From: Actinomycetota bacterium
GTDB taxonomy: Bacteria > Actinomycetota > Thermoleophilia > BMS3ABIN01
Assembly (NCBI GenBank): GCA_016235065.1
Contig: JACRMB010000008.1
Coordinates: forward strand, 11,013-59,399
Length of the DNA stretch: 48,387 bases
Direction: 5' to 3'
Positions 8,423 through 37,665 of the stretch are shown here, in pieces (within the stretch, counting starts at the first letter, position 1; every line of letters starts with the position of its first letter). The notes below the pieces were generated by a model that worked only from the letters and a program-made list of their open reading frames with translations, was not told the DNA's origin and ran no database searches. The position numbers were made by a program, and so were the translations under genes.

Positions 8423-9838
8423 TTACGCATCCCGGTCGACAAAGCTCGTGACCGTCTTCAGCAAAATCTTGATATCCAGCCACGGATTCCAGTTCTCGAT
8501 GTAATAGATGTCGTGCTCGACGCGTTCTGATATATCCGTGTCTCCCCTTAAACCGTTGATCTGAGCCCAGCCGGTCAGACCGGGACGCACCCGGTGCCTG
8601 CTGCCGTATGCCTGGATCTCCTGCTCGAAATGTTCCACGTGCTCGGGCCGCTCGGGCCTCGGGCCTACCAGGCTCATCTCCCCCTTGATTACGTTGATCA
8701 GCTGAGGCAGCTCGTCGATGCCGAGCGGCCGGATGAACCTGCCGACCCGCGTACGCCGCACATCTCCAACAGTTGACCAGCCCGCCTTGCCTTTCTCGGC
8801 GTCCCTGCGCATGGAACGGAACTTGAGGATCTCAAACGGTTTATCGTTCTTGCCCAGGCGCGTCTGATGGTAAAGTACGGGCCCAGGTGAATCGAGCTTG
8901 ATGGCGACAGCGACCAGGAGAAGTAGCGGCGCCAGGATAATCAGAACCACGAGGGATATAACGATGTCCATAATGCGTTTGACGAAACCCTGCAGGCCGG
9001 TGATGCTGCTGCGCTTGAGGCCGAGCACCGGCAAGCCCCGGATATGCTCGACGCCGACGCTGTCACTGAAGATCTCGTAAAGCCGCGGCACCATAGTGAA
9101 CTCCACATTGTAGGGTCGGCAACGCTCCATAAGCTCGACAATGGTGTCATGCCTGTCACGTGAGAAGCCCACCACCATGTGCTGGATACGATACTGCTTG
9201 AGTACTTCCTCGAGCTTGTCGTAGTCATCGAAGACCTTGTATGACCCGAAGTCCGCCTCGCGCCCCGATGGTTTCTCATCCAGGAAGCCCACGAACCTGA
9301 GGCCAAGGTCCGGGTTGCGGATGATCTTGCCGGCGGCGCTGATGCCGACCTTGCCTGCTCCCAGCACCAGCGTGTTCTTCACATACCAGCCGCGGCGCCG
9401 CCCCCAGCGGAATATCATGTAGACGATCAGCCGCGCCAGGGAGACGCAGACGATGGTGCTGACCCAGGAGATGACGATGATGTTACGCGAATAGTGGACC
9501 ACCGGGAAGATGAACATGGTTATCGCCAGCAGCACCATCGAAGCTTCGGTCACGGCGGTGACGATCGCCGGCAGCACTTCCAGCAGGCTCAGGTTCAGAC
9601 GGAAACGGTAGAGGCCGTGCAGCTTGAACAGCAGCCAGTAGAACGGCAGGATGCCAGCGGCCAGCGCCAGGTAAAAGTTATAGGAAGGAGCGGCCGCCTC
9701 ACCGGCATAGAGCACGCCCCACTGGATATAGAACAGGAAAGCGAGCCGGAAGCCGGCGACTACACCCAGCATGTCAGCGACGACCAGCGTGACGTGGGAG
9801 AATCGATGTGATGTGAAGAATTTTGCCGCTTTAGTCAA
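8423..9838 (-). CDS. Undecaprenyl-phosphate sugar-phosphotransferase (WbaP/PssY type)
   Basis: A 471-aa polyisoprenyl-phosphate hexose-1-phosphate transferase that starts glycan synthesis on undecaprenyl phosphate. About four N-terminal membrane helices (residues 1-130) are followed by a CoA-binding-like Rossmann domain (NTLVLGAGKVGISAAGKI). The C-terminal bacterial sugar transferase domain has the re-entrant helix KRIMDIVISLVVLI, then DSPGPVLYHQTRLG, FKSMR and the conserved VGPRPERPEHVE. Length matches the family (450-480 aa). It is divergent from the GT4 gene at 9927. The nature of the first sugar (glucose, galactose or an amino sugar) cannot be decided. Confidence 0.93.
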   Translation of the reverse strand: MTKAAKFFTSHRFSHVTLVVADMLGVVAGFRLAFLFYIQWGVLYAGEAAAPSYNFYLALAAGILPFYWLLFKLHGLYRFRLNLSLLEVLPAIVTAVTEASMVLLAITMFIFPVVHYSRNIIVISWVSTIVCVSLARLIVYMIFRWGRRRGWYVKNTLVLGAGKVGISAAGKIIRNPDLGLRFVGFLDEKPSGREADFGSYKVFDDYDKLEEVLKQYRIQHMVVGFSRDRHDTIVELMERCRPYNVEFTMVPRLYEIFSDSVGVEHIRGLPVLGLKRSSITGLQGFVKRIMDIVISLVVLIILAPLLLLVAVAIKLDSPGPVLYHQTRLGKNDKPFEILKFRSMRRDAEKGKAGWSTVGDVRRTRVGRFIRPLGIDELPQLINVIKGEMSLVGPRPERPEHVEHFEQEIQAYGSRHRVRPGLTGWAQINGLRGDTDISERVEHDIYYIENWNPWLDIKILLKTVTSFVDRDA

Positions 9839-9890
9839 CTTTAGTCCCTGCTGTTTATTTTAGCGATTTTCAGGTATTTTATCCGCTTTT

Positions 9891-9920
9891 TTGTCGGCCC
9901 GGCGCCGACGGTGCTAAAAT
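9891..9920 (+). promoter_or_regulatory. Promoter giving an apparently leaderless mRNA
   Basis: TTGTCG (9891-9896) and TAAAAT (9915-9920) are 18 bp apart. Only six bases separate the -10 box from the ATG at 9927, so transcription should start at or next to the start codon, and no Shine-Dalgarno is present. The spacer contains an inverted repeat (GTCGGC ... GCCGAC, 9892-9908) that could bind a regulator. Confidence 0.5.
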
Positions 9921-9926
9921 CGCCCC

Positions 9927-11045
9927 ATGTTGCGTATCGGTATCAACGGTCGTTCCATCTTCCGGCAGCTCACCGGGGTGCAGCACTACGCCCGCGAAGT
10001 AACACGCGCCCTCTGCGCCCTGAAGGTGGAAGACGTAGACTTCACGGTCTTCTCCGGCCGCGAGGGACGGGACGCCGAAACCGGTCTGCCGGTTGAGGTC
10101 AGCCGGGCCCCCGCTGGCGGCCCAGTCCGCGGCCTGGTCTGGGAGCAGACGGTCCTGAGGCGCATGGTCAAAAAGGCGGGCGTCGACGTCCTCTTCAGCC
10201 CCGCCAACGTGGCGCCGCTATATCCGCCGTCTCCAAGCGTAGTTACCATCCACGACCTGTCTTTCCTGCTTTTCCCCGAATATTTCTCACGCAGTTTCGG
10301 CGTCTATTACCGGAACATCATACCGAAGATCGTGGAGCAGGCCTCGGCCGTCATCACCGATTCCGAAAGTTCGAGGGAAGACCTGATCACCCATCTCGGG
10401 GTCGCTCCCGAAAAGGTCACTGCCATCCACCTGGGAGTCTCCGCGGACTTCCGCCAGCGGGTAAGGAAGGACGATCTCGAAACAGTGCGTCGCCGCCTCG
10501 GCCTGCCGGCGCAGTTCTTCCTGTCAGTCTCCAGCCTCGAACCGCGCAAGAACCTGGCGAACCTGGTGAAGGCCTACCGCCTGCTTCCCGAGGAAGTGAC
10601 CGCCGAGAATAAACTGGTTCTCGTGGGCGCCGGCAACCGCCTCTTCTCGGATCCCGGTCTCGCGGATGTGATCGAGCGGCTGCCGTCTGGTTCGGTGATC
10701 GCCCCCGGATATATCCCTGAGGAAGATCTACCGTCCGTCTACCGGATGGCCACGGCGCTGGTCTTCCCGTCCCTCTACGAAGGCTTCGGCTTGCCGGTTC
10801 TGGAAGCCATGGCTGCCTCAACCCCGGTGATCGCCTCAAACCGTTCGTCCGTGCCTGAAGTAGCTGGCACGGCGGCGGCGCTTATAAACCCGGAGAGCGT
10901 CGAGGAGATCGCTGCGGCGATGGAACTGCTCGCCAGCGACTCGGGCACGCGGAACCTGCTGATTGAAAGAGGAAAGAAGCGGGCGGGTCAGTTCACCTGG
11001 GAGAAGACGGCGGAACGGACGCTCGAGGTCTTGCGGGGCATATAA
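9927..11045 (+). CDS. GT4 family glycosyltransferase
   Basis: A 372-aa GT-B glycosyltransferase. The N-terminal GINGRSIFRQLTGVQHYAR is the acceptor-side glycine-rich loop of the mannosyl/rhamnosyl GT4 group. The donor side has FLSVSSLEPRKNL and [17 protein letters not shown] with the E-x7-E pair. Length is normal. It is transcribed alone on the plus strand, with an apparently leaderless promoter directly in front. It resembles the GT4 at 13612-14727 in layout (same motif set), which suggests two sequential transferases in one repeat unit. Acceptor and donor are unknown. Confidence 0.92.
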   Translation: MLRIGINGRSIFRQLTGVQHYAREVTRALCALKVEDVDFTVFSGREGRDAETGLPVEVSRAPAGGPVRGLVWEQTVLRRMVKKAGVDVLFSPANVAPLYPPSPSVVTIHDLSFLLFPEYFSRSFGVYYRNIIPKIVEQASAVITDSESSREDLITHLGVAPEKVTAIHLGVSADFRQRVRKDDLETVRRRLGLPAQFFLSVSSLEPRKNLANLVKAYRLLPEEVTAENKLVLVGAGNRLFSDPGLADVIERLPSGSVIAPGYIPEEDLPSVYRMATALVFPSLYEGFGLPVLEAMAASTPVIASNRSSVPEVAGTAAALINPESVEEIAAAMELLASDSGTRNLLIERGKKRAGQFTWEKTAERTLEVLRGI

Positions 11046-11084
11046 AGCGTTTACTTCTGCCGCTATCCACCAGGGCGCGGCTCT

Positions 11085-11420
11085 CTACCAAGGCAACTGA
11101 TATTCCCCTTTAGATGCCAGATAGATTCCCAAAGCCGAGTTAAATACCGTGAGCACCAAGCCGATGATGCACAGGACTACACCAGCGATCGCCATTCCCC
11201 TGTTTCTGGATTTCCGCCCCTTGATACCCAATACAAGCCCCACGATGTTTACCGGCGCACCAAAAATAGGGATGAACCATGCGAACATTCCAATTATTCC
11301 GAGCACTAAAGAAGCGGTCGCCTTGCCACTGCCTTCAGGCACACCAGAGGAAAGCCGTTCCCCACACGCACACAGAACCGCCGTATCAGCATTCTCTATT
11401 CCACATTTCGAACAATACAT
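11085..11420 (-). CDS. Zinc-ribbon membrane protein, DUF4190-like
   Basis: A 111-aa protein beginning MYCSKCGIEN, a zinc ribbon with CxxC at residues 3-6 and a second Cys pair-like CACG near residue 22. It is followed by two hydrophobic helices (ASLVLGIIGMFAWFIPIFG and a second one) separated by a short basic loop (KGRKSRNRG), as in DUF4190-type proteins. The start is fixed by AGGAGG seven bases before the ATG at 11420; the frame is open further upstream without a better site. It is adjacent to and co-directional with another small two-to-three-helix protein. Function unknown. Confidence 0.8.
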   Translation of the reverse strand: MYCSKCGIENADTAVLCACGERLSSGVPEGSGKATASLVLGIIGMFAWFIPIFGAPVNIVGLVLGIKGRKSRNRGMAIAGVVLCIIGLVLTVFNSALGIYLASKGEYQLPW

Positions 11421-11485
11421 GTCAACCTCCTGTCTGAAATATACCTGAGCAGCCCTGCGGTTTTCCCTATCCATTTCGGTGGCTG

Positions 11486-11797
11486 TCAAAGCATAAAAAA
11501 GAACATGCCTATCAGCGTCAACGCGGAAAAGACGGTTCCGAGGATGGCAAACACATTCTTCCTGTCATTCTGGAAAAGACCACCGATTCCCAGCCCCAGC
11601 GCGACAACGGAAGCAGACAAAAAAGCGAATAGCAGAAGACCTATCATCATCACGCTAACGGATTCCTCATCAATACCACCAGGCGTGGATAACTCCAGTG
11701 CTCCAGCGACAGCGATCAGGACAAATATGAATATTGCCGCCGTGATCGAAACAACGAACGATGCTATACCCAGTCCTGAGTGTTTTGGCTCCATCAT
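11486..11797 (-). CDS. Small membrane protein of unknown function
   Basis: A 103-aa protein with three hydrophobic segments (residues about 11-33, 48-74 and 83-103) and a short acidic loop (GIDEESVS). It looks like the membrane part of DUF4190-type proteins but lacks a zinc ribbon. The sequence opens with two ATGs; AGGAG lies five bases before the second (11794), which is the likelier start. It ends 65 bp before the zinc-ribbon protein and probably shares its transcript. No function can be given. Confidence 0.65.
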   Translation of the reverse strand: MMEPKHSGLGIASFVVSITAAIFIFVLIAVAGALELSTPGGIDEESVSVMMIGLLLFAFLSASVVALGLGIGGLFQNDRKNVFAILGTVFSALTLIGMFFFML

Positions 11798-11855
11798 TAC
11801 TCCTCGCTAATTGGACATACAATCGGCCAGGGTGAGGAGTAACATAACAGCTTGA

Positions 11856-25192: not shown

Positions 25193-27631
25193 TCAGCGCA
25201 GCAGCATGCCGGGAAGCTCATCAAAGGAATTGTTGAACAATGTCCGCTGGCTCACTACCAGCTCAGGCTGGCCGCTGGTGCTGACTATCTGCACAGGACC
25301 ATCCATCGTACCCGGGAACGCAGGGGTCACACGCCCACCAGCCGGGATCGAATAGTGGTCCATTACCTCGCCACCGATCAGGATGTCCACTTCAGCGGTC
25401 TGCGTGCTCTGATTGCCTACCATCACCCAGGTCTGCATCCCTGAAGAAGCGTTGTCGTACCAGGCGAACCACTGTTCGCTAGCCAGGTCTGTCGAGTTCG
25501 TTCCCGGCACTTCTTCAAACGAACCCTTGTACAGCGATCTCTGTCCCACGATCAGCGACTGCCCATTGGAGCTTACTACTCTCACCGGACCATCCATAAG
25601 GTTGGGATAATCAGGAGTCACTCGGCCGCCGGCAGGAATCGTGTAGAGACCGACAAGCGTCTCCGCCACATAGATCCCGACCTCGGCAGTCTGGCTTCCC
25701 TGGTTGCCCACAACGATCCAGGTCTGCATGCCGACGCTCTGCTCGTCATACCAGGTGAAGTGGTATTCAGATGCGAGTTGTGTGGCCGGCTTGCCGCCCA
25801 CCTCATTGAAAGCCCCGTTGAAGATTACCCTGCTGCTGACGCTGAGTGGCTGTCCGTTCGACGCCACGACCCGCACCGGACCGTTCATGGTTCCGGAGAA
25901 ATGAGGCGCGATAGTCGAGCCGGCCGGCACAGTGTAATTGCCCATGAGCTGGCCGGCTACGTAGATATCTACCAGCGCGGTCTGGCTGCCCTGGTTGCCT
26001 ACGACTACCCAGTTCTGCATGCCGGCCGTCTGCTCGTCGTACCAGGCAAGCAGCTGGTCGCTGGAGAGGTCGGACTCGGGAACAGCCGGAATCTCGGCAA
26101 ATGTCCCATTGAATGTCACACGCTCACTGACCAGCAGATCGCCACCGGTTGAGGAAACTACTTTGACCGGGCCGTCAGCGACGGCGTACATAGGAGTCGC
26201 CCGCTGCTGCGGAGCGATATCATAGGTGCCTTGCAGGGTACCGCCGATATAGACTTCCGCACGCTGCGCCGTATTGCCCGGATTACCGATTATGATCCAG
26301 TTCTGCATGCCCGGGGTCACGTTGTCATAGAGGCCGAAGTAATAGTTCTTGACAGTTCCGTTCTGAATAGTCACCGGAACGCTGGCAACTGCATAATTCC
26401 CAGCCGGGTCGAATGCCTTCGCCGTCAGAGTATAGCTGCCGTCGGCGAACGCACCGGAAGAAAGGTTGTAGTTGTAAGGAGCGGAGGTCACTGAACCGAC
26501 CATATTGTCCCCAACGAAGAACTCGACCCTGGCGACGGAATCATTGTCCGACGCCGTGACGGCCACGTTAGTGTTCCCACTGATAGTTGCGCCCGGCATC
26601 GGCGAAGTCAGCGAGACCGTCGGTGGGACTGCGTCCGGACCCTGCACTGCATCCCTGAAGCCCTCGAGGCTTGCCGCGGAACTCTCAATCCGCCAGTCGG
26701 TCTCCTTGTTGATATTGAACCAGGTGAGCATCTCGATTCGTGGGAATCTCGTCGGCAGAGAAGCGAAAGCGTCCCTGATCCACTGGCCCTTACCGCCGTT
26801 CTGGACGTTGCCGCCGACTTCCGTCGTCGCTGTCTCGGCGATCACTACCGGCTTGCTCGTATTGGCAACAGCCACGTCGTAGCTGTAACGGATCACGTCT
26901 TCGAAGTCCTGCCAGGAGGAAGTCCACTCAGGAGTGTCATAAAGCGTGCCCCAGTTATACCCGTTGATGCCGATGTAATCGACGTAATTGTCACCCGGAT
27001 AATAAGTGTTGAACGTGGCCTGGGCATCTGCGGTAGAACCGTCGCGATTGGGAGACCAGACCCACATCACGTTGGTAGCGCCTTCCTGCACGAAGATATC
27101 GTGCACATGTCGCCAGGCAGGAATGTAATCATCGGGAGTATTGCCATTCACAGTGCCGCCCCAGGTGACCCAGTCTCCGTTCATCTCGCACATGGGCCGG
27201 AAATAGATGGGATAGCCGAAGTCCCTCAGCTGCCTTGCCCAGCGCCTGATATCGTTATCGAAATCACCAGCGGTGATCCTCTCAAGACGATACTCCGGCT
27301 GGTTGGTGGCGGGACGGGAAAAATCATGTGGCTCCCAGGCCAGCTGGATCGCGCGACCTTCCTGGGCCATCGGCCGGAAGTTATCGGCATAAAAATCCTC
27401 ACCGATGGATTCGTACCATAGGAAGACGTCAGTCTGGCGGCCGATAACTGCTTCAAAATCGTGTAGGTCACCAACAGAAGGAAGCTGCTCGTCAGGAAGC
27501 TGGGGATCGGGGAAGAAAACCCCGAGCTGCACGCTGGATTCGACAGCGCCTGCCTGCGTAACGAACGAGCCGACGAAGAAAACGGAAAGCAACGCGGCAA
27601 CTATGAATACTGTTACCCAACGGGGTGACAC
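25193..27631 (-). CDS. Secreted GH26-like glycoside hydrolase with Ig domain and four C-terminal repeats
   Basis: An exported protein of about 812 aa. A hydrophobic signal segment (VFIVAALLSVFFVGSF) is followed by a GH26 (beta-mannanase-like) catalytic domain to about residue 335. The likely acid/base Glu is in RPMCEMNGDW, and the nucleophile Glu is in PVVIAETATTE. Residues about 340-425 are a bacterial Ig-like domain (SLTSPMPGATISG, VEFFVGDNMVGS). Four repeats of about 96 aa follow, each with a YD(N/E)...GMQ(N/T)W...VGN core. GTG at 27631 is chosen because AGGAGG lies ten bases upstream. A GEMM-I riboswitch directly precedes it, so expression should follow cyclic dinucleotide levels. Confidence 0.85.
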   Translation of the reverse strand: MSPRWVTVFIVAALLSVFFVGSFVTQAGAVESSVQLGVFFPDPQLPDEQLPSVGDLHDFEAVIGRQTDVFLWYESIGEDFYADNFRPMAQEGRAIQLAWEPHDFSRPATNQPEYRLERITAGDFDNDIRRWARQLRDFGYPIYFRPMCEMNGDWVTWGGTVNGNTPDDYIPAWRHVHDIFVQEGATNVMWVWSPNRDGSTADAQATFNTYYPGDNYVDYIGINGYNWGTLYDTPEWTSSWQDFEDVIRYSYDVAVANTSKPVVIAETATTEVGGNVQNGGKGQWIRDAFASLPTRFPRIEMLTWFNINKETDWRIESSAASLEGFRDAVQGPDAVPPTVSLTSPMPGATISGNTNVAVTASDNDSVARVEFFVGDNMVGSVTSAPYNYNLSSGAFADGSYTLTAKAFDPAGNYAVASVPVTIQNGTVKNYYFGLYDNVTPGMQNWIIIGNPGNTAQRAEVYIGGTLQGTYDIAPQQRATPMYAVADGPVKVVSSTGGDLLVSERVTFNGTFAEIPAVPESDLSSDQLLAWYDEQTAGMQNWVVVGNQGSQTALVDIYVAGQLMGNYTVPAGSTIAPHFSGTMNGPVRVVASNGQPLSVSSRVIFNGAFNEVGGKPATQLASEYHFTWYDEQSVGMQTWIVVGNQGSQTAEVGIYVAETLVGLYTIPAGGRVTPDYPNLMDGPVRVVSSNGQSLIVGQRSLYKGSFEEVPGTNSTDLASEQWFAWYDNASSGMQTWVMVGNQSTQTAEVDILIGGEVMDHYSIPAGGRVTPAFPGTMDGPVQIVSTSGQPELVVSQRTLFNNSFDELPGMLLR

Positions 27632-27641
27632 TTGAGCCAAG

Positions 27642-27745
27642 CCTCCTCGGCGGCAGCCAGGCTATCGTAGTCCGAAGACCTTAGACCCTTGGCTTTGCGC
27701 CACTCTGTTTCCAGAGCTTTGCCCTTATCATCCGGGACTTGGCTT
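27642..27745 (-). ncRNA. GEMM-I (c-di-GMP-I type) riboswitch upstream of the GH26-like gene
   Basis: Minus-strand leader with the family core: AAGGGCAAA, a hairpin CTCTG-GAAA-CAGAG with a GNRA tetraloop, GGCGCAAAGCC, then GGGTCTAAGG ... TACGATAGCC, which resembles the tetraloop receptor, and a closing GCTGCCG. These match c-di-GMP-I riboswitches from memory of the consensus. The Shine-Dalgarno AGGAGG (27647-27642) follows at once. The heptamer CTTGGCT next to it (27641-27635) can pair with AGCCAAG inside the aptamer (27694-27688) or before it (27744-27738), a likely translational switch. Alignment is needed to separate c-di-GMP from cGAMP sensing. Confidence 0.85.
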
Positions 27746-28037: not shown

Positions 28038-29675
28038 TTGAAAAAACTAAAAACAATGACAATTTTCGGGACCAGGCCTGAGGTTATCAAGCTGGCTCCC
28101 ATCATAAGCAGGCTGGAAGAATCGCCAAACTTCGACTCGGTTCTGGTGACTACAGGCCAACACCGGGAGATGCTGGGACAGGCTCTCGGCCAATTCGGAA
28201 TCGAACCAGACTATAACCTTGACATCATGCAGCCCGACCAGGGCGTCAGCGATGTTACTGTCAGCTCGTTGCGTGGCGTCGAGGAGCTGATCAATACCGA
28301 GAAACCAGACCTCGTCCTGGTCCAGGGCGACACAACCACTGCCTTTGCTGGCTGCCTCGCGGCTTTCTATCAAAAAACACCAGTAGGCCATGTCGAAGCC
28401 GGTTTGCGTACCTACGACAAGTACAAGCCGTTCCCCGAGGAAATCAACCGCTCGATGATCACCCAGCTGGCCGACCTCCACTTTGTTCCCACTGTCACGG
28501 CCTGGGAAAGTCTAAGAAACGAGGGAGTTGACGCTGACCGGATCTTCATCACGGGCAATACGGTCATCGATGCGCTGTTCCAGGTAGTCAAGCCTGACTA
28601 TGAATTTTCAAATCCTGAGCTAAAAGGGGTTGGAGAGAACGGTAAACGTCTTGTGGTCGTGACATCCCACCGGCGGGAGAATTTCGGCCAGCCCATCCTG
28701 GATATCTGTAGCAGTATCATGGAGATAGTCGACCGCTTCGAAGATATCGAAGTCGTATTCTCAGTGCATCGCAACCCAAAAGTACGGGTCCCGATTCAGA
28801 CTTTACTTGCTGACAAAGAGCGCATTCGGCTGGTCGAGCCGCTCGATTATATAGACATGGCGAATCTTCTTTCAAAAGCCTATCTGGTCATGACAGATTC
28901 CGGAGGGCTGCAGGAAGAAGCACCGGCGCTGGCCAAACCGGTCCTCGTGCTCAGAGATCTTACCGAGCGCCCCGAAGCTGTGCAGGCAGGCCTGGCGCGC
29001 ATCGTCGGCACCTCCAGGCAGGCGATAATCGGCGCCGCCACGGAACTGCTCACCAATATTACCAGCTATACCGCCATGACCCAGGGAATCAGCCCGTATG
29101 GTGACGGCAGGGCTGCATCACGTATCATAAGTGCGATCGAATATGTGAACGGCATGCGGGCCAATAAGCCGGCGCCGTTTGTGAGCCGTATGGTTACTCC
29201 GGTCACTGGTGACCAGATGCTTGAAGAGCGGCCGCTGACTGACGAGCTTTTCTATCAGCAGCTGGACGAGCGCATAAAGCGAGCCAGGCAAGAGCGGCAG
29301 AGAGTCTCGGTTGCCACGTTTGATATGGAGAACACCGACCGTGAACAGTTCGCTGAGGCGGTCAGGGCGATAACTCGAAGCCTCAGAAAGACCGATACCG
29401 CTGCCGCGCTGGAAGGAAAGCGGCTGGTACTTGTCCTCCCGGGAGCCGGAAAGAAGCAGGCACAACGAACCACAGACAGGCTACTGAAGAATCTTACGGG
29501 ACCGCTCCAGGGCCGGCGTGAAGATGACAAGCTGGAGTCACAATCCCAGGACCGGGTGGAGCAGTTGATCAAGACGATAAATATCAAGATAAAGACATAT
29601 GATGGACAGGAAAGCATAACGAAAACAGTTGAATCAGCCGAAACACATGATGAGGCGGGAACCAGGGCTGACTGA
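28038..29675 (+). CDS. UDP-GlcNAc 2-epimerase fused to a degenerate GGDEF-like domain
   Basis: A 545-aa cytoplasmic protein. The first about 380 residues are a non-hydrolysing UDP-N-acetylglucosamine 2-epimerase (WecB/MnaA), which makes UDP-ManNAc. Its markers are MTIFGTRPEVIKLAP, QGDTTTAFAGC, GHVEAGLRT, TSHRRENFG and MTDSGGLQEEAPAL. The usual family ends there. The extra about 160 residues begin PLTDELFYQQLDERIKRAR, then RVSVATFDMEN, AITRSLRKTDTAAALEGKRL and VLVLPGAGKKQAQR. This is the layout of a diguanylate cyclase domain with the GGDEF motif replaced by EGKRL. The TTG at 28038 gives the family N-terminus; the frame is open back to 27933. Confidence 0.85.
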   Translation: MKKLKTMTIFGTRPEVIKLAPIISRLEESPNFDSVLVTTGQHREMLGQALGQFGIEPDYNLDIMQPDQGVSDVTVSSLRGVEELINTEKPDLVLVQGDTTTAFAGCLAAFYQKTPVGHVEAGLRTYDKYKPFPEEINRSMITQLADLHFVPTVTAWESLRNEGVDADRIFITGNTVIDALFQVVKPDYEFSNPELKGVGENGKRLVVVTSHRRENFGQPILDICSSIMEIVDRFEDIEVVFSVHRNPKVRVPIQTLLADKERIRLVEPLDYIDMANLLSKAYLVMTDSGGLQEEAPALAKPVLVLRDLTERPEAVQAGLARIVGTSRQAIIGAATELLTNITSYTAMTQGISPYGDGRAASRIISAIEYVNGMRANKPAPFVSRMVTPVTGDQMLEERPLTDELFYQQLDERIKRARQERQRVSVATFDMENTDREQFAEAVRAITRSLRKTDTAAALEGKRLVLVLPGAGKKQAQRTTDRLLKNLTGPLQGRREDDKLESQSQDRVEQLIKTINIKIKTYDGQESITKTVESAETHDEAGTRAD

Positions 29676-29778: not shown

Positions 29779-29898
29779 ATGTACGGAGTTTTGTTACCAG
29801 TTACCGGAGTAGCGATTGGCCTATACGCCCTGGTCGCAGTTACGTGCGTGATCATCGGTTCTCTGATGAGGATGAGAGGCAAGGGAACCAATCGATAG
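29779..29898 (+). CDS. 39-residue LPXTG sorting-signal micro-protein
   Basis: A 39-aa ORF with a strong GAGGAGGTG Shine-Dalgarno eight bases before its ATG. The sequence starts MYGVLLPVTGVAIGLYALV, continues hydrophobic for about 20 residues and ends with a basic tail (SLMRMRGKGTNR). This is the three-part C-terminal sorting signal of sortase substrates (LPXTG, membrane span, positive tail), with no mature domain or signal peptide in front. It lies between the epimerase-GGDEF and deacetylase-synthase genes, probably in the same transcript. It might be a sortase-anchored or membrane micro-protein, or a relic of a larger surface protein. No sortase is in the window. Confidence 0.7.
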   Translation: MYGVLLPVTGVAIGLYALVAVTCVIIGSLMRMRGKGTNR

Positions 29899-29929: not shown

Positions 29930-32818
29930 ATGATTTATCAATCAAAAATTGCATCGAGCTACGGCACTCGATCACATGAGGGCATTTCCCTTAGATTAAT
30001 CGTAGCGTTGCTGTTGCTGGCGCTACTTTTTTTTGTGCTCCCATTTTCGCAGAACGAGAATGCCCTAAGCGCAATATTGCCTCAGATCGCGGCTGATCAG
30101 GCCCCGGCTTCCGCACCCGCGGGACCTCGGGTCCTAATAGTGCATGACCAGATCGATGACCCTCAGCTGGGCCAGGAGCTTGCAGCCCTTCTGGGCCATT
30201 TTTCAGCGGAAAGCGTCATCGTCGAACAGCCTTTCTATGAAGCCGGCAGTATGGAAAATTACGATGTGGTTTTTTATATTGGCGGCTCTCACCGTGAGAT
30301 CAATCCGGATTTTCTCAACGACATCTCGGTGAGAGCCAGGCCGGTTGTCTGGATGGGACGCGGCCTGGACTGGCTTTCAGCGAGATACCCCCTGAGCAAT
30401 TACGGCTTTGAATATGCGCGCGTGGATGGCTCCGGGACCATTAACACAGTCACCTATGAGAATACTTCTCTGGTCAAGACCAACCCGGTCACAAACTTTA
30501 CATACATAACCGATGAAGCCAGGGCGCAGGTTATGGCTTGGGCAGAAGGGGAGGCAGGTACGACTCCCTATGTCATCCGTAGCGATAATTTCTGGTTTTT
30601 TGCAGATGTCCCTATGGTCGGCACAGATGTTAACAGCGCCTATTCGGCTGCGGGAGCAACTGAAGACAGCGCCTATCTTGTGCTGGCCGACCTTCTCCAC
30701 GACATCACAGGGATCGACCATCCGATTCAGCATCCGGCGCTGGTCCGTATTGAGGACATCCATCCCAACACGGATCTCAGTCGCCTCAACTCGGTAGTCG
30801 ATTACCTCTATCACAAGCAGATTCCCTTCGGCATCGGCCTGGTGCCGGTATACAAGAATCCTGAGACTGGTGAGGAAGTCCATCTTTCGGACAGGCCTGA
30901 TTTCGTCGCCGCCATCAAGGAGGCGCAGGACAAGGGTGCGGTGATCGTCCTCCATGGCTACACCCACCAGCGCGTTGGAGAAACGGTCGTGGATTACGAG
31001 TTCTGGGACCGGGACACCCACGCTCCACCTGCCGAGGAGACTGCTGCCGCTACCCGTGCGCGAGTCGAAGCGGCTATTCGCGAGACTGCCGAAGTCGGGA
31101 TCTATCCTCAGATCTGGGAAACACCCCACTACGCTGCCTCCGATCAGACCCACGATATAGTGGCTGATTACTTCAAGGTTGTCTGGGAGCGAAGCGACGC
31201 GCCCTTCTTCCCTTACCTTGTCCAGCTGAAGACAGACCAGACAGCCCTTCCCGAGACTCTCGGTTATGTCAATCCTTCGGAGGGATATCCCGGACAGGGG
31301 CATTCGGCCGAAGACCTGCTCGAAGTCGCCGCCAAACAGAAAGTGGTAAGGGATGGCTACGCCGCCTTCTTCTTCCACCCCATGGTCGACGGCGGGGAGT
31401 TGAGGGAGATGGTGGAAGGCTTGCAGGACCAGAACTACAGGTTTGCGTCTCCGGCACAGGTTGCCGGACTCCCATATAGTCCGACTGAGCCGCCCTCCTG
31501 GTACTCGAACCTGCTCTGGCAGGTATCAGACCGGGTGGGAAGGCTGATGCCTGATAACGCCCTGGATTCGCGCATCGTCACCGTCATAGCCCTCTTCGTC
31601 ATCCTGTATTACTGGGGCATATTCCTGCTGTCCCGCAAACCGGCACCTGTCACAGATCCCCCGGACCCGAGCCTCCATTTCGTGATCGTGGTTCCCTGTC
31701 TCAACGAGGAGCTGGTGATTGCGCGCACCCTTGACCACCTGCTTTCATTGCCCGAGCGAAATCTCACGATCCTCGTAGTCGACGATGATTCGGATGACCA
31801 AACCAGGGAGATCGCCCTGTCCTACCCTCGTGACAGGGTGACAGTTATCGACCATCCTCGTGCAGAGGCACGCCAGGGAAAAGGCCGAGTGCTCAACTAC
31901 GCTTTCAGATACCTGATAAATAGCCCACTCGTGGCAAAAAACGGTGCGAACAAGGTCATCGTCGGAGTCATCGATGCTGATGGCCGGGTCGAGGCAAACG
32001 TGGTCGACACGGTCAATCCCTATTTTGTGGACCACAAGACAGGCGCCGTGCAGGTCGGCGTCAGGATCTCCAACGCGAACACCAACGCGCTCACCAAATG
32101 GCAGAATTTCGAGTTCCTCACATTCGCCCGAATCTCCCAGAAAGCGCGTGAACATCTGGGAAGCGTCGGTCTCGGCGGCAACGGCCAGTTCGTGCGCCTG
32201 TCAGCCCTGGCCACGCTCGGCGATGATCCCTGGACAGACTGCCTGACCGAAGACCTCGATCTTGGAATCAGGCTGATGCTACTGGGCTGGGTGAATCATT
32301 ACAGCCCGGACAGTTTCGTTTCCCAGCAGGGAGTGCCGAAGATGCGCCCGCTCATTCGCCAGCGAACCCGCTGGTTCCAGGGACACATCACCTGCTGGCA
32401 TCATATCCCGGCCCTCATGGGCAGAAATTCACCAGTGATAGCCAGGACTGACACTATTTATTACCTGCTCGCGCCGGTGCTCATATTCATGTTCCTTCCC
32501 AGCTCAATGATCTTCCTTGCCTGGTCGATATATTTTCTGGTTTCTGGCGCGTCTTCCGTGGTGCTTTCTCCGCTGAACTACCTGCCCGTGCTGGTCGCGT
32601 GGTATCTGTTTTCCTTCGGGGCGCTGCCGACAGTCGTCTGGACCTTCTGGAGGGAAGAGAAAGAGATCAGCGCCTGGAAGGCGTTTCTGTGGGCCCATAT
32701 ATTCTCGTTCTTCTATGTAATCTGGTTTATCGCCGGTTGCAAGGCTATCTATCGAATCGCCCGCGGGCAGGGAGCCTGGGCAAAAACCGCCCGCACAGAG
32801 GAGTTGCCACCAGCATAG
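29930..32818 (+). CDS. DUF2334 deacetylase-like domain fused to a processive GT2 synthase
   Basis: A 962-aa membrane protein. A helix at residues 22-40 anchors an extracellular region (about 66-530) of the DUF2334 polysaccharide-deacetylase superfamily, with RIEDIHP, LHGYTHQ and FFHPM as likely metal and catalytic sites. A second helix (about 550-567) brings the chain back inside to a GT2 domain of the PgaC/cellulose synthase type: VVPCLNEE, DDDSDD, DAD at 682-684, TED at 773-775 and QRTRW at 811-815. Three C-terminal helices follow. It would polymerise an amino sugar or glucose and modify it on export, combining roles that PgaC and PgaB split. It is probably coupled with the preceding genes. 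Confidence 0.9.
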   Translation: MIYQSKIASSYGTRSHEGISLRLIVALLLLALLFFVLPFSQNENALSAILPQIAADQAPASAPAGPRVLIVHDQIDDPQLGQELAALLGHFSAESVIVEQPFYEAGSMENYDVVFYIGGSHREINPDFLNDISVRARPVVWMGRGLDWLSARYPLSNYGFEYARVDGSGTINTVTYENTSLVKTNPVTNFTYITDEARAQVMAWAEGEAGTTPYVIRSDNFWFFADVPMVGTDVNSAYSAAGATEDSAYLVLADLLHDITGIDHPIQHPALVRIEDIHPNTDLSRLNSVVDYLYHKQIPFGIGLVPVYKNPETGEEVHLSDRPDFVAAIKEAQDKGAVIVLHGYTHQRVGETVVDYEFWDRDTHAPPAEETAAATRARVEAAIRETAEVGIYPQIWETPHYAASDQTHDIVADYFKVVWERSDAPFFPYLVQLKTDQTALPETLGYVNPSEGYPGQGHSAEDLLEVAAKQKVVRDGYAAFFFHPMVDGGELREMVEGLQDQNYRFASPAQVAGLPYSPTEPPSWYSNLLWQVSDRVGRLMPDNALDSRIVTVIALFVILYYWGIFLLSRKPAPVTDPPDPSLHFVIVVPCLNEELVIARTLDHLLSLPERNLTILVVDDDSDDQTREIALSYPRDRVTVIDHPRAEARQGKGRVLNYAFRYLINSPLVAKNGANKVIVGVIDADGRVEANVVDTVNPYFVDHKTGAVQVGVRISNANTNALTKWQNFEFLTFARISQKAREHLGSVGLGGNGQFVRLSALATLGDDPWTDCLTEDLDLGIRLMLLGWVNHYSPDSFVSQQGVPKMRPLIRQRTRWFQGHITCWHHIPALMGRNSPVIARTDTIYYLLAPVLIFMFLPSSMIFLAWSIYFLVSGASSVVLSPLNYLPVLVAWYLFSFGALPTVVWTFWREEKEISAWKAFLWAHIFSFFYVIWFIAGCKAIYRIARGQGAWAKTARTEELPPA

Positions 32819-37584: not shown

Positions 37585-37665
37585 TCATATACGAAAAGGC
37601 AAACCCGTCGCGAGGCGGGGACGCAAAGCCAGGGGTCTCCCCCAGAGACAGCCCAGCTGCCGAAG
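37585..37665 (+). ncRNA. Second GEMM-I (c-di-GMP-I type) riboswitch aptamer
   Basis: Plus-strand leader with ACGAAAAGGCAAACC, a hairpin CCCGTC-GCGA-GGCGGG with a GNRA loop, GACGCAAAGCC, then a second hairpin GGGGTCTC ... GAGACAGCCC and the closing GCTGCCG. The core strings match c-di-GMP-I riboswitches (known family, recalled from consensus). The tetraloop-receptor side lacks the usual TAAG/TATG pair. A terminator follows about 60 bases later and the first gene starts at 37858. Which ligand (c-di-GMP or cGAMP) is bound needs alignment. Confidence 0.85.

Follow-up and report, generated by a model that had tools for sequence, protein, structure and literature searches.

A non-hydrolysing UDP-GlcNAc 2-epimerase with a long C-terminal extension is encoded at positions 28038–29675 of the analysed DNA stretch (hereafter the window; 48,387 nucleotides), and this protein is, with a probability of about 0.58, a c-di-GMP-regulated enzyme in which a catalytically dead GGDEF domain serves as an I-site receptor.

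Architecture of the Fusion Protein

The open reading frame 28038–29675 is real and encodes a WecB/MnaA-type epimerase followed by approximately 165 extra C-terminal residues. The first-pass annotation had placed the start at TTG 28038, which is the likely start, being supported by an ATG at this codon in the relatives L071, L076, and L077; its description of a WecB enzyme with about 160 additional residues also agrees with the complete WecB and the extension found here. The full-length model comprises the enzyme, a low-confidence linker (residues 384–402), the GGDEF domain, and a tail disordered from residue 518. The range previously given for the domain, nt 29205–29522, is too short, the domain covering approximately nt 29235–29600. 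Residues are numbered from ATG 28056 (residue 1), and the features of the gene are as follows:

28038–29675, + strand: wecB-GGDEF fusion gene, 545 aa from TTG 28038
28056–29150, + strand: non-hydrolysing UDP-GlcNAc 2-epimerase domain, residues 1–365 (profiles, residues)
29151–29234, + strand: linker, residues 366–393, partly of low confidence in the model
29235–29600, + strand: shortened degenerate GGDEF domain, residues ~394–515 (Pfam, AF2, Foldseek/VIA)
29385–29396, + strand: I-site RxxD, R444-K-T-D447 (PleD R359/D362), Arg and Asp invariant in 8/8
29412–29426, + strand: degenerate GG(D/E)EF position, EGKRL (sequence, alignment)
29478–29480, + strand: third I-site arginine, R475 (PleD R390), invariant in 8/8
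29601–29672, + strand: C-terminal tail, disordered and fast-evolving (full-length model, pN/pS)

The WecB part matches TIGR00236 with 490 bits (cut-off 210) and PF02350 with 384 bits (5e-115). The catalytic Asp, Glu, Glu, and His correspond to D92, E114, E128, and H205, the substrate-binding Arg and Lys to R7 and K12, and further substrate or catalytic residues are R132, S282, and E288. The UDP-GlcNAc allosteric site is represented by Q35, H36, Q62, R206, and H238, and at its third position stands Glu (E38), which belongs to the pair of residues usually found at this place; the roles of the catalytic, substrate, and allosteric residues have been described for MnaA (PMC11464976). Since all of them are present in the sequence, the epimerase of the fusion should be active. 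It is the only WecB found in the source genome. The solved WecB/MnaA structures (3BEO, 1VGV) resemble the fusion in the whole enzyme domain, including the catalytic and UDP-GlcNAc allosteric residues, but the solved WecB chains listed comprise 375–413 aa, and none is long enough to hold the extension.

Fold of the C-Terminal Extension

Searched by itself, the extension matches the GGDEF family PF00990 with 30.0 bits (E 5e-7), and the whole protein does so with 25.1 bits, both values exceeding the gathering score of 23.8. A profile of the eight orthologous extensions retrieved canonical diguanylate cyclases phylum-wide (396 genomes searched) with E-values of 1e-6 to 1e-9. The AF2 model of the extension, built on an alignment of its orthologues alone, was of middling confidence (pLDDT 68, pTM 0.56), and the order of secondary-structure elements in the modelled domain is H-E-H-E-E-H-(loop)-H-E. 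A Foldseek search of the PDB with this model placed PelD (4etz) first (E 1.3e-4), and all 50 among the matches listed were GGDEF proteins; VIA-align likewise gave GGDEF proteins throughout among the matches listed, with Z of 9–11. The extension had been read as a degenerate GGDEF domain in the first-pass annotation, and this reading is borne out by profile, predicted fold, and conservation; with a GGDEF-like fold found by Pfam, Foldseek, and VIA, we consider it nearly certain. The view of the extension as a random or disordered tail is rejected by conservation, the AF2 fold, and pN/pS, and holds only for the last 20–25 residues.

In direct sequence searches of the PDB, the extension matched mainly TAL-effector repeats with phmmer, and its profile matched mainly one designed protein; in both cases single stretches were insignificant, and these matches were dismissed as repeat artefacts. 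The diguanylate cyclase 5m3c was among the PDB matches of both searches.

Loss of the Active Site and Retention of the I-Site

The sites were compared in an alignment of the eight fusions with 37 GGDEF domains from the source and related genomes. The GG(D/E)EF position reads [ED]G[KRG][RQ][LM] in all eight fusions, and the FKxxND..GH..GD loop forming the guanine/metal site is deleted in every one of them, so that an active diguanylate cyclase is rejected. The loss of the motif reported earlier was thus correct: EGKRL stands at its position, and the cyclase site is gone. One could propose that GTP or some other nucleotide is still sensed in the old active site, which would link the supply of UDP-ManNAc to GTP levels, and the position of the first metal-ligand Asp (D423) is indeed invariant in the fusions. 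However, with the GG(D/E)EF motif replaced in all eight proteins and GTP binding made unlikely by the deletion of the guanine-contacting loop, this explanation is barely credible.

Despite the loss of the active site, the alignment shows that every same-chain residue of the putative c-di-GMP inhibitory site is retained. R444, D447, and R475 (R72, D75, and R103 in the numbering of A1) are each invariant in the eight orthologues, and in the source protein R475 sits at +31 from R444, as in the R359/D362/R390 set of PleD, for which the roles and numbering of the I-site residues are described in PMC7288161. The RxxD motif precedes the motif position by the canonical five residues in seven fusions and by eight in L010, where a three-residue insertion separates them; the canonical spacing was also seen directly in the retrieved cyclase sequences. 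The fourth I-site residue, contributed in PleD by R313 of the neighbouring GGDEF domain, may correspond to R409; this position is occupied by Arg in six orthologues, Lys in one, and Ala in one.

The invariance of the I-site trio is suggestive only, since the domain is well conserved overall: 31 of its 89 columns are invariant, and the chance of the three named columns all being so is about 0.04. Besides, active cyclases of the same genomes commonly carry the I-site, and therefore its presence in the fusion could be mere inheritance. Among the unrelated degenerate GGDEF proteins retrieved by the searches, four (L054, L068, L067, and L018) have kept R-D-R after the loss of the motif, and one (L017) has lost both. 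Regarding the two ligands offered in the first-pass annotation, the case for c-di-GMP is strengthened by the invariant R-D-R set, and that for GTP is weakened by the loss of the A-site motif and the guanine loop.

L054 and L068 (G200:C30) are adjoining multi-pass membrane proteins combining GAF-like regions with a degenerate GGDEF domain. They share the loop deletion of the fusion and keep the I-site R-D-R; they are probably unrelated c-di-GMP receptors.

Distribution and Evolution of the Fusion

A look for the same fusion in related genomes, suggested by the first-pass annotation, revealed it in eight genomes of four genera, all belonging to one Thermoleophilia family; a ninth candidate, in G099, is interrupted by a contig end. 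All the relatives compared are draft genomes, most evidently MAGs. The fusion was not seen outside the family among 199 genomes of the class and 396 of the phylum. The class-wide matches L012–L020 were rejected as epimerase fusions, being, with frames as read, ordinary or degenerate GGDEF proteins. In G030, the orthologue is unfused, stops just past the linker, and adjoins the same synthase. The WecB tree is best explained if the fusion was acquired once, at the base of the family, and was lost a single time, in G030.

The pN/pS ratio is approximately 0.1–0.3 over the GGDEF domain, which is somewhat higher than for the enzyme, and over most of the C-terminal tail it is 0.4–1.0; by this measure, the GGDEF domain is under purifying selection. 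These data bear on the possibility that the domain binds no ligand and has a structural or oligomerisation role, as a cyclase relic kept for folding or stability. Such a role would fit a shortened domain with no A-site, as well as the unfused G030 orthologue, which shows that the enzyme manages without the domain; nevertheless, the purifying selection over the domain and the invariant I-site trio speak against it, and we regard it as quite improbable.

In L074 (G066, 8958–11855), the synthase and GH26 genes are gone beside the epimerase, and the fusion protein stops prematurely, without reaching the final strand of the domain, possibly reflecting decay in progress. The coupling of fusion and synthase is not obligatory, since the enzyme is unfused beside the synthase in G030 and fused without it in G066.

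Genomic Context

The neighbourhood of the fusion gene contains the following elements:

25193–27640, − strand: GH26 glycoside hydrolase with an Ig-like domain, divergent (Pfam)
27649–27733, − strand: c-di-GMP-I riboswitch aptamer RF01051, before the GH26 gene (78.6 bits)
29779–29898, + strand: 39-aa micro-ORF MYGVLLPVTGVAIGLYALVAVTCVIIGSLMRMRGKGTNR, with LPVTG, TM, and a basic tail (conservation)
29930–32818, + strand: DUF2334 (deacetylase-like) plus processive GT2 polysaccharide synthase, with DAD, TED, and QRTRW motifs

The polysaccharide synthase previously noted downstream is confirmed as the DUF2334-GT2 protein at 29930–32818. The divergent c-di-GMP riboswitch is real as well, but the gene in front of which it lies is that of GH26, on the opposite strand, rather than that of the epimerase. 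The block of GH26, riboswitch, epimerase, and synthase is conserved in L072, L073, and L075, and in genus g3 the synthase comes before the epimerase. Within the family, synthase and WecB occur together in eight cases, each alone in two, and neither in seven (Fisher p 0.023). A Pfam scan of 29930–32818 found no MshEN or PilZ domain on the synthase, and since no known c-di-GMP domain is thus detected there, the epimerase is the candidate sensor. With regard to the polymer, a deacetylase combined with this synthase would be just as compatible with poly-GlcNAc. The GH26 hydrolase is possibly under c-di-GMP control, trimming the polysaccharide.

The micro-ORF between the epimerase and synthase genes is kept in eight family genomes, all of them with WecB; two copies are present in G042, and one weak match occurs elsewhere in the class. 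It probably belongs to the locus, and its product, which resembles a bare sortase sorting signal, may be a small synthase subunit or an anchored peptide; the source genome has three sortases. A second riboswitch, of the c-di-GMP-I-GGC class, is located at 37589–37665 (+) of the window and at similar places in L072–L075 and L078. With 20 GGDEF matches, fusion included, the source genome is rich in c-di-GMP signalling.

Comparison with Known Systems

PelD (P. aeruginosa, B. cereus), the best Foldseek hit, shares with the fusion a degenerate GGDEF domain with RxxD and the third Arg, as well as an exopolysaccharide (EPS) locus. PelD of B. cereus binds c-di-GMP with a Kd of 103 nM, and binding is abolished by mutation of RxxD or the third Arg; the receptor role is thus measured for PelD, while for the fusion it is predicted. 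SDR-epimerase-PelD proteins are known in Brevibacillus and other Gram-positives, and the N-terminal nucleotide-sugar epimerase domain carried by some PelD is a parallel to the fusion (PMC7112168). However, PelD resides in the membrane and contains a GAF domain, and where it has an epimerase domain, this is of the SDR/GalE type and its catalytic residues are often altered, whereas in the fusion a complete and unrelated WecB carries the GGDEF domain directly. Pfam detects WecB and GGDEF in the fusion but not GAF; lacking GAF and lying outside a pel locus (the synthase is GT2-DUF2334), it falls outside the definition of PelD.

Listeria PssE, which binds c-di-GMP with a Kd of 0.79 uM and drives synthesis of a ManNAc-Gal EPS, and B. 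subtilis YdaK, whose I-site is required for EPS and which clusters with DgcK, are further receptors of this kind (PMC4125290, PMC5422440). Both have a degenerate GGDEF domain in which RxxD is placed five residues ahead of where the motif was lost and are encoded in an EPS operon but, unlike the fusion, they are stand-alone receptors with no enzyme attached. In E. coli, WecB (NfrC) supplies UDP-ManNAc to the c-di-GMP-controlled GT2 synthase NfrB, which is activated through direct contact with the cyclase DgcJ, and wecB often adjoins nfrB (PMC8669469, PMC8669472); that WecB feeds a c-di-GMP-dependent ManNAc EPS is well supported in this species. There, c-di-GMP is sensed by the synthase via MshEN, while here the candidate sensor is the epimerase.

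These contacts give some ground for the alternative that the GGDEF domain serves for targeting or scaffolding: by binding a cyclase or the synthase, whether or not c-di-GMP takes part, it would bring an epimerase of constitutive activity to the EPS machinery. The flexible linker of the model and the conserved locus with the synthase are in line with it, along with the NfrB-DgcJ contact and the clustering of YdaK with DgcK. By itself, however, scaffolding leaves the invariance of the I-site alongside the loss of the A-site unexplained, and in G066 the fusion persists although the synthase is absent, so that we consider this alternative unlikely.

The closest precedents are the PelD proteins that carry an SDR epimerase domain at the N terminus and the NfrB-WecB pathway of E. 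coli. The first-pass annotation knew of no described epimerase of this form. A fusion of UDP-GlcNAc 2-epimerase and GGDEF was indeed not found in the openly accessible literature searched, a weak indication of absence; but an unrelated family of enzymes does offer a counterpart to the principle of an epimerase joined to a dead GGDEF domain, as the SDR-epimerase PelD is known. What appears to be new is the WecB-type enzyme with a degenerate GGDEF domain, degenerate I-site receptors and SDR-epimerase PelD being already known.

Proposed Mechanism and Significance

For the preferred reading, that of a c-di-GMP-regulated epimerase, binding of c-di-GMP by the GGDEF domain appears probable, and control of the activity or placement of the epimerase by the messenger somewhat favoured. 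Intercalated c-di-GMP dimers would occupy the I-site in the manner of PelD, PssE, and YdaK, linking adjacent GGDEF domains within the WecB dimer. The tuning of UDP-ManNAc supply put forward in the first-pass annotation is likewise a prediction. The changed geometry would switch, more likely raise, epimerase activity or dock the enzyme on the membrane synthase; at high c-di-GMP, UDP-ManNAc would then be produced at the place of its use by the DUF2334-GT2 synthase, and the riboswitch would meanwhile adjust the GH26 hydrolase. Activation rather than inhibition is a guess from the behaviour of known receptors of the PelD/PssE/YdaK type. The shortened domain, the middling model, and the separability of fusion and synthase (G030, G066) count against this reading.

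Control of exopolysaccharides by c-di-GMP is known to operate mostly via the synthase or a partner protein. The chances are about even that here the 2-epimerase is itself the receptor, the messenger acting in cis on the supply of UDP-ManNAc and not on the polymerase, with the riboswitch controlling the matching hydrolase. A compact soluble protein would allow signalling from the I-site to the enzyme to be measured by a simple assay, with the unfused G030 orthologue as a natural control. If the proposed regulation is true, metabolic supply becomes a direct target of c-di-GMP, via a receptor inside the precursor-making enzyme, in a little-studied actinobacterial class.
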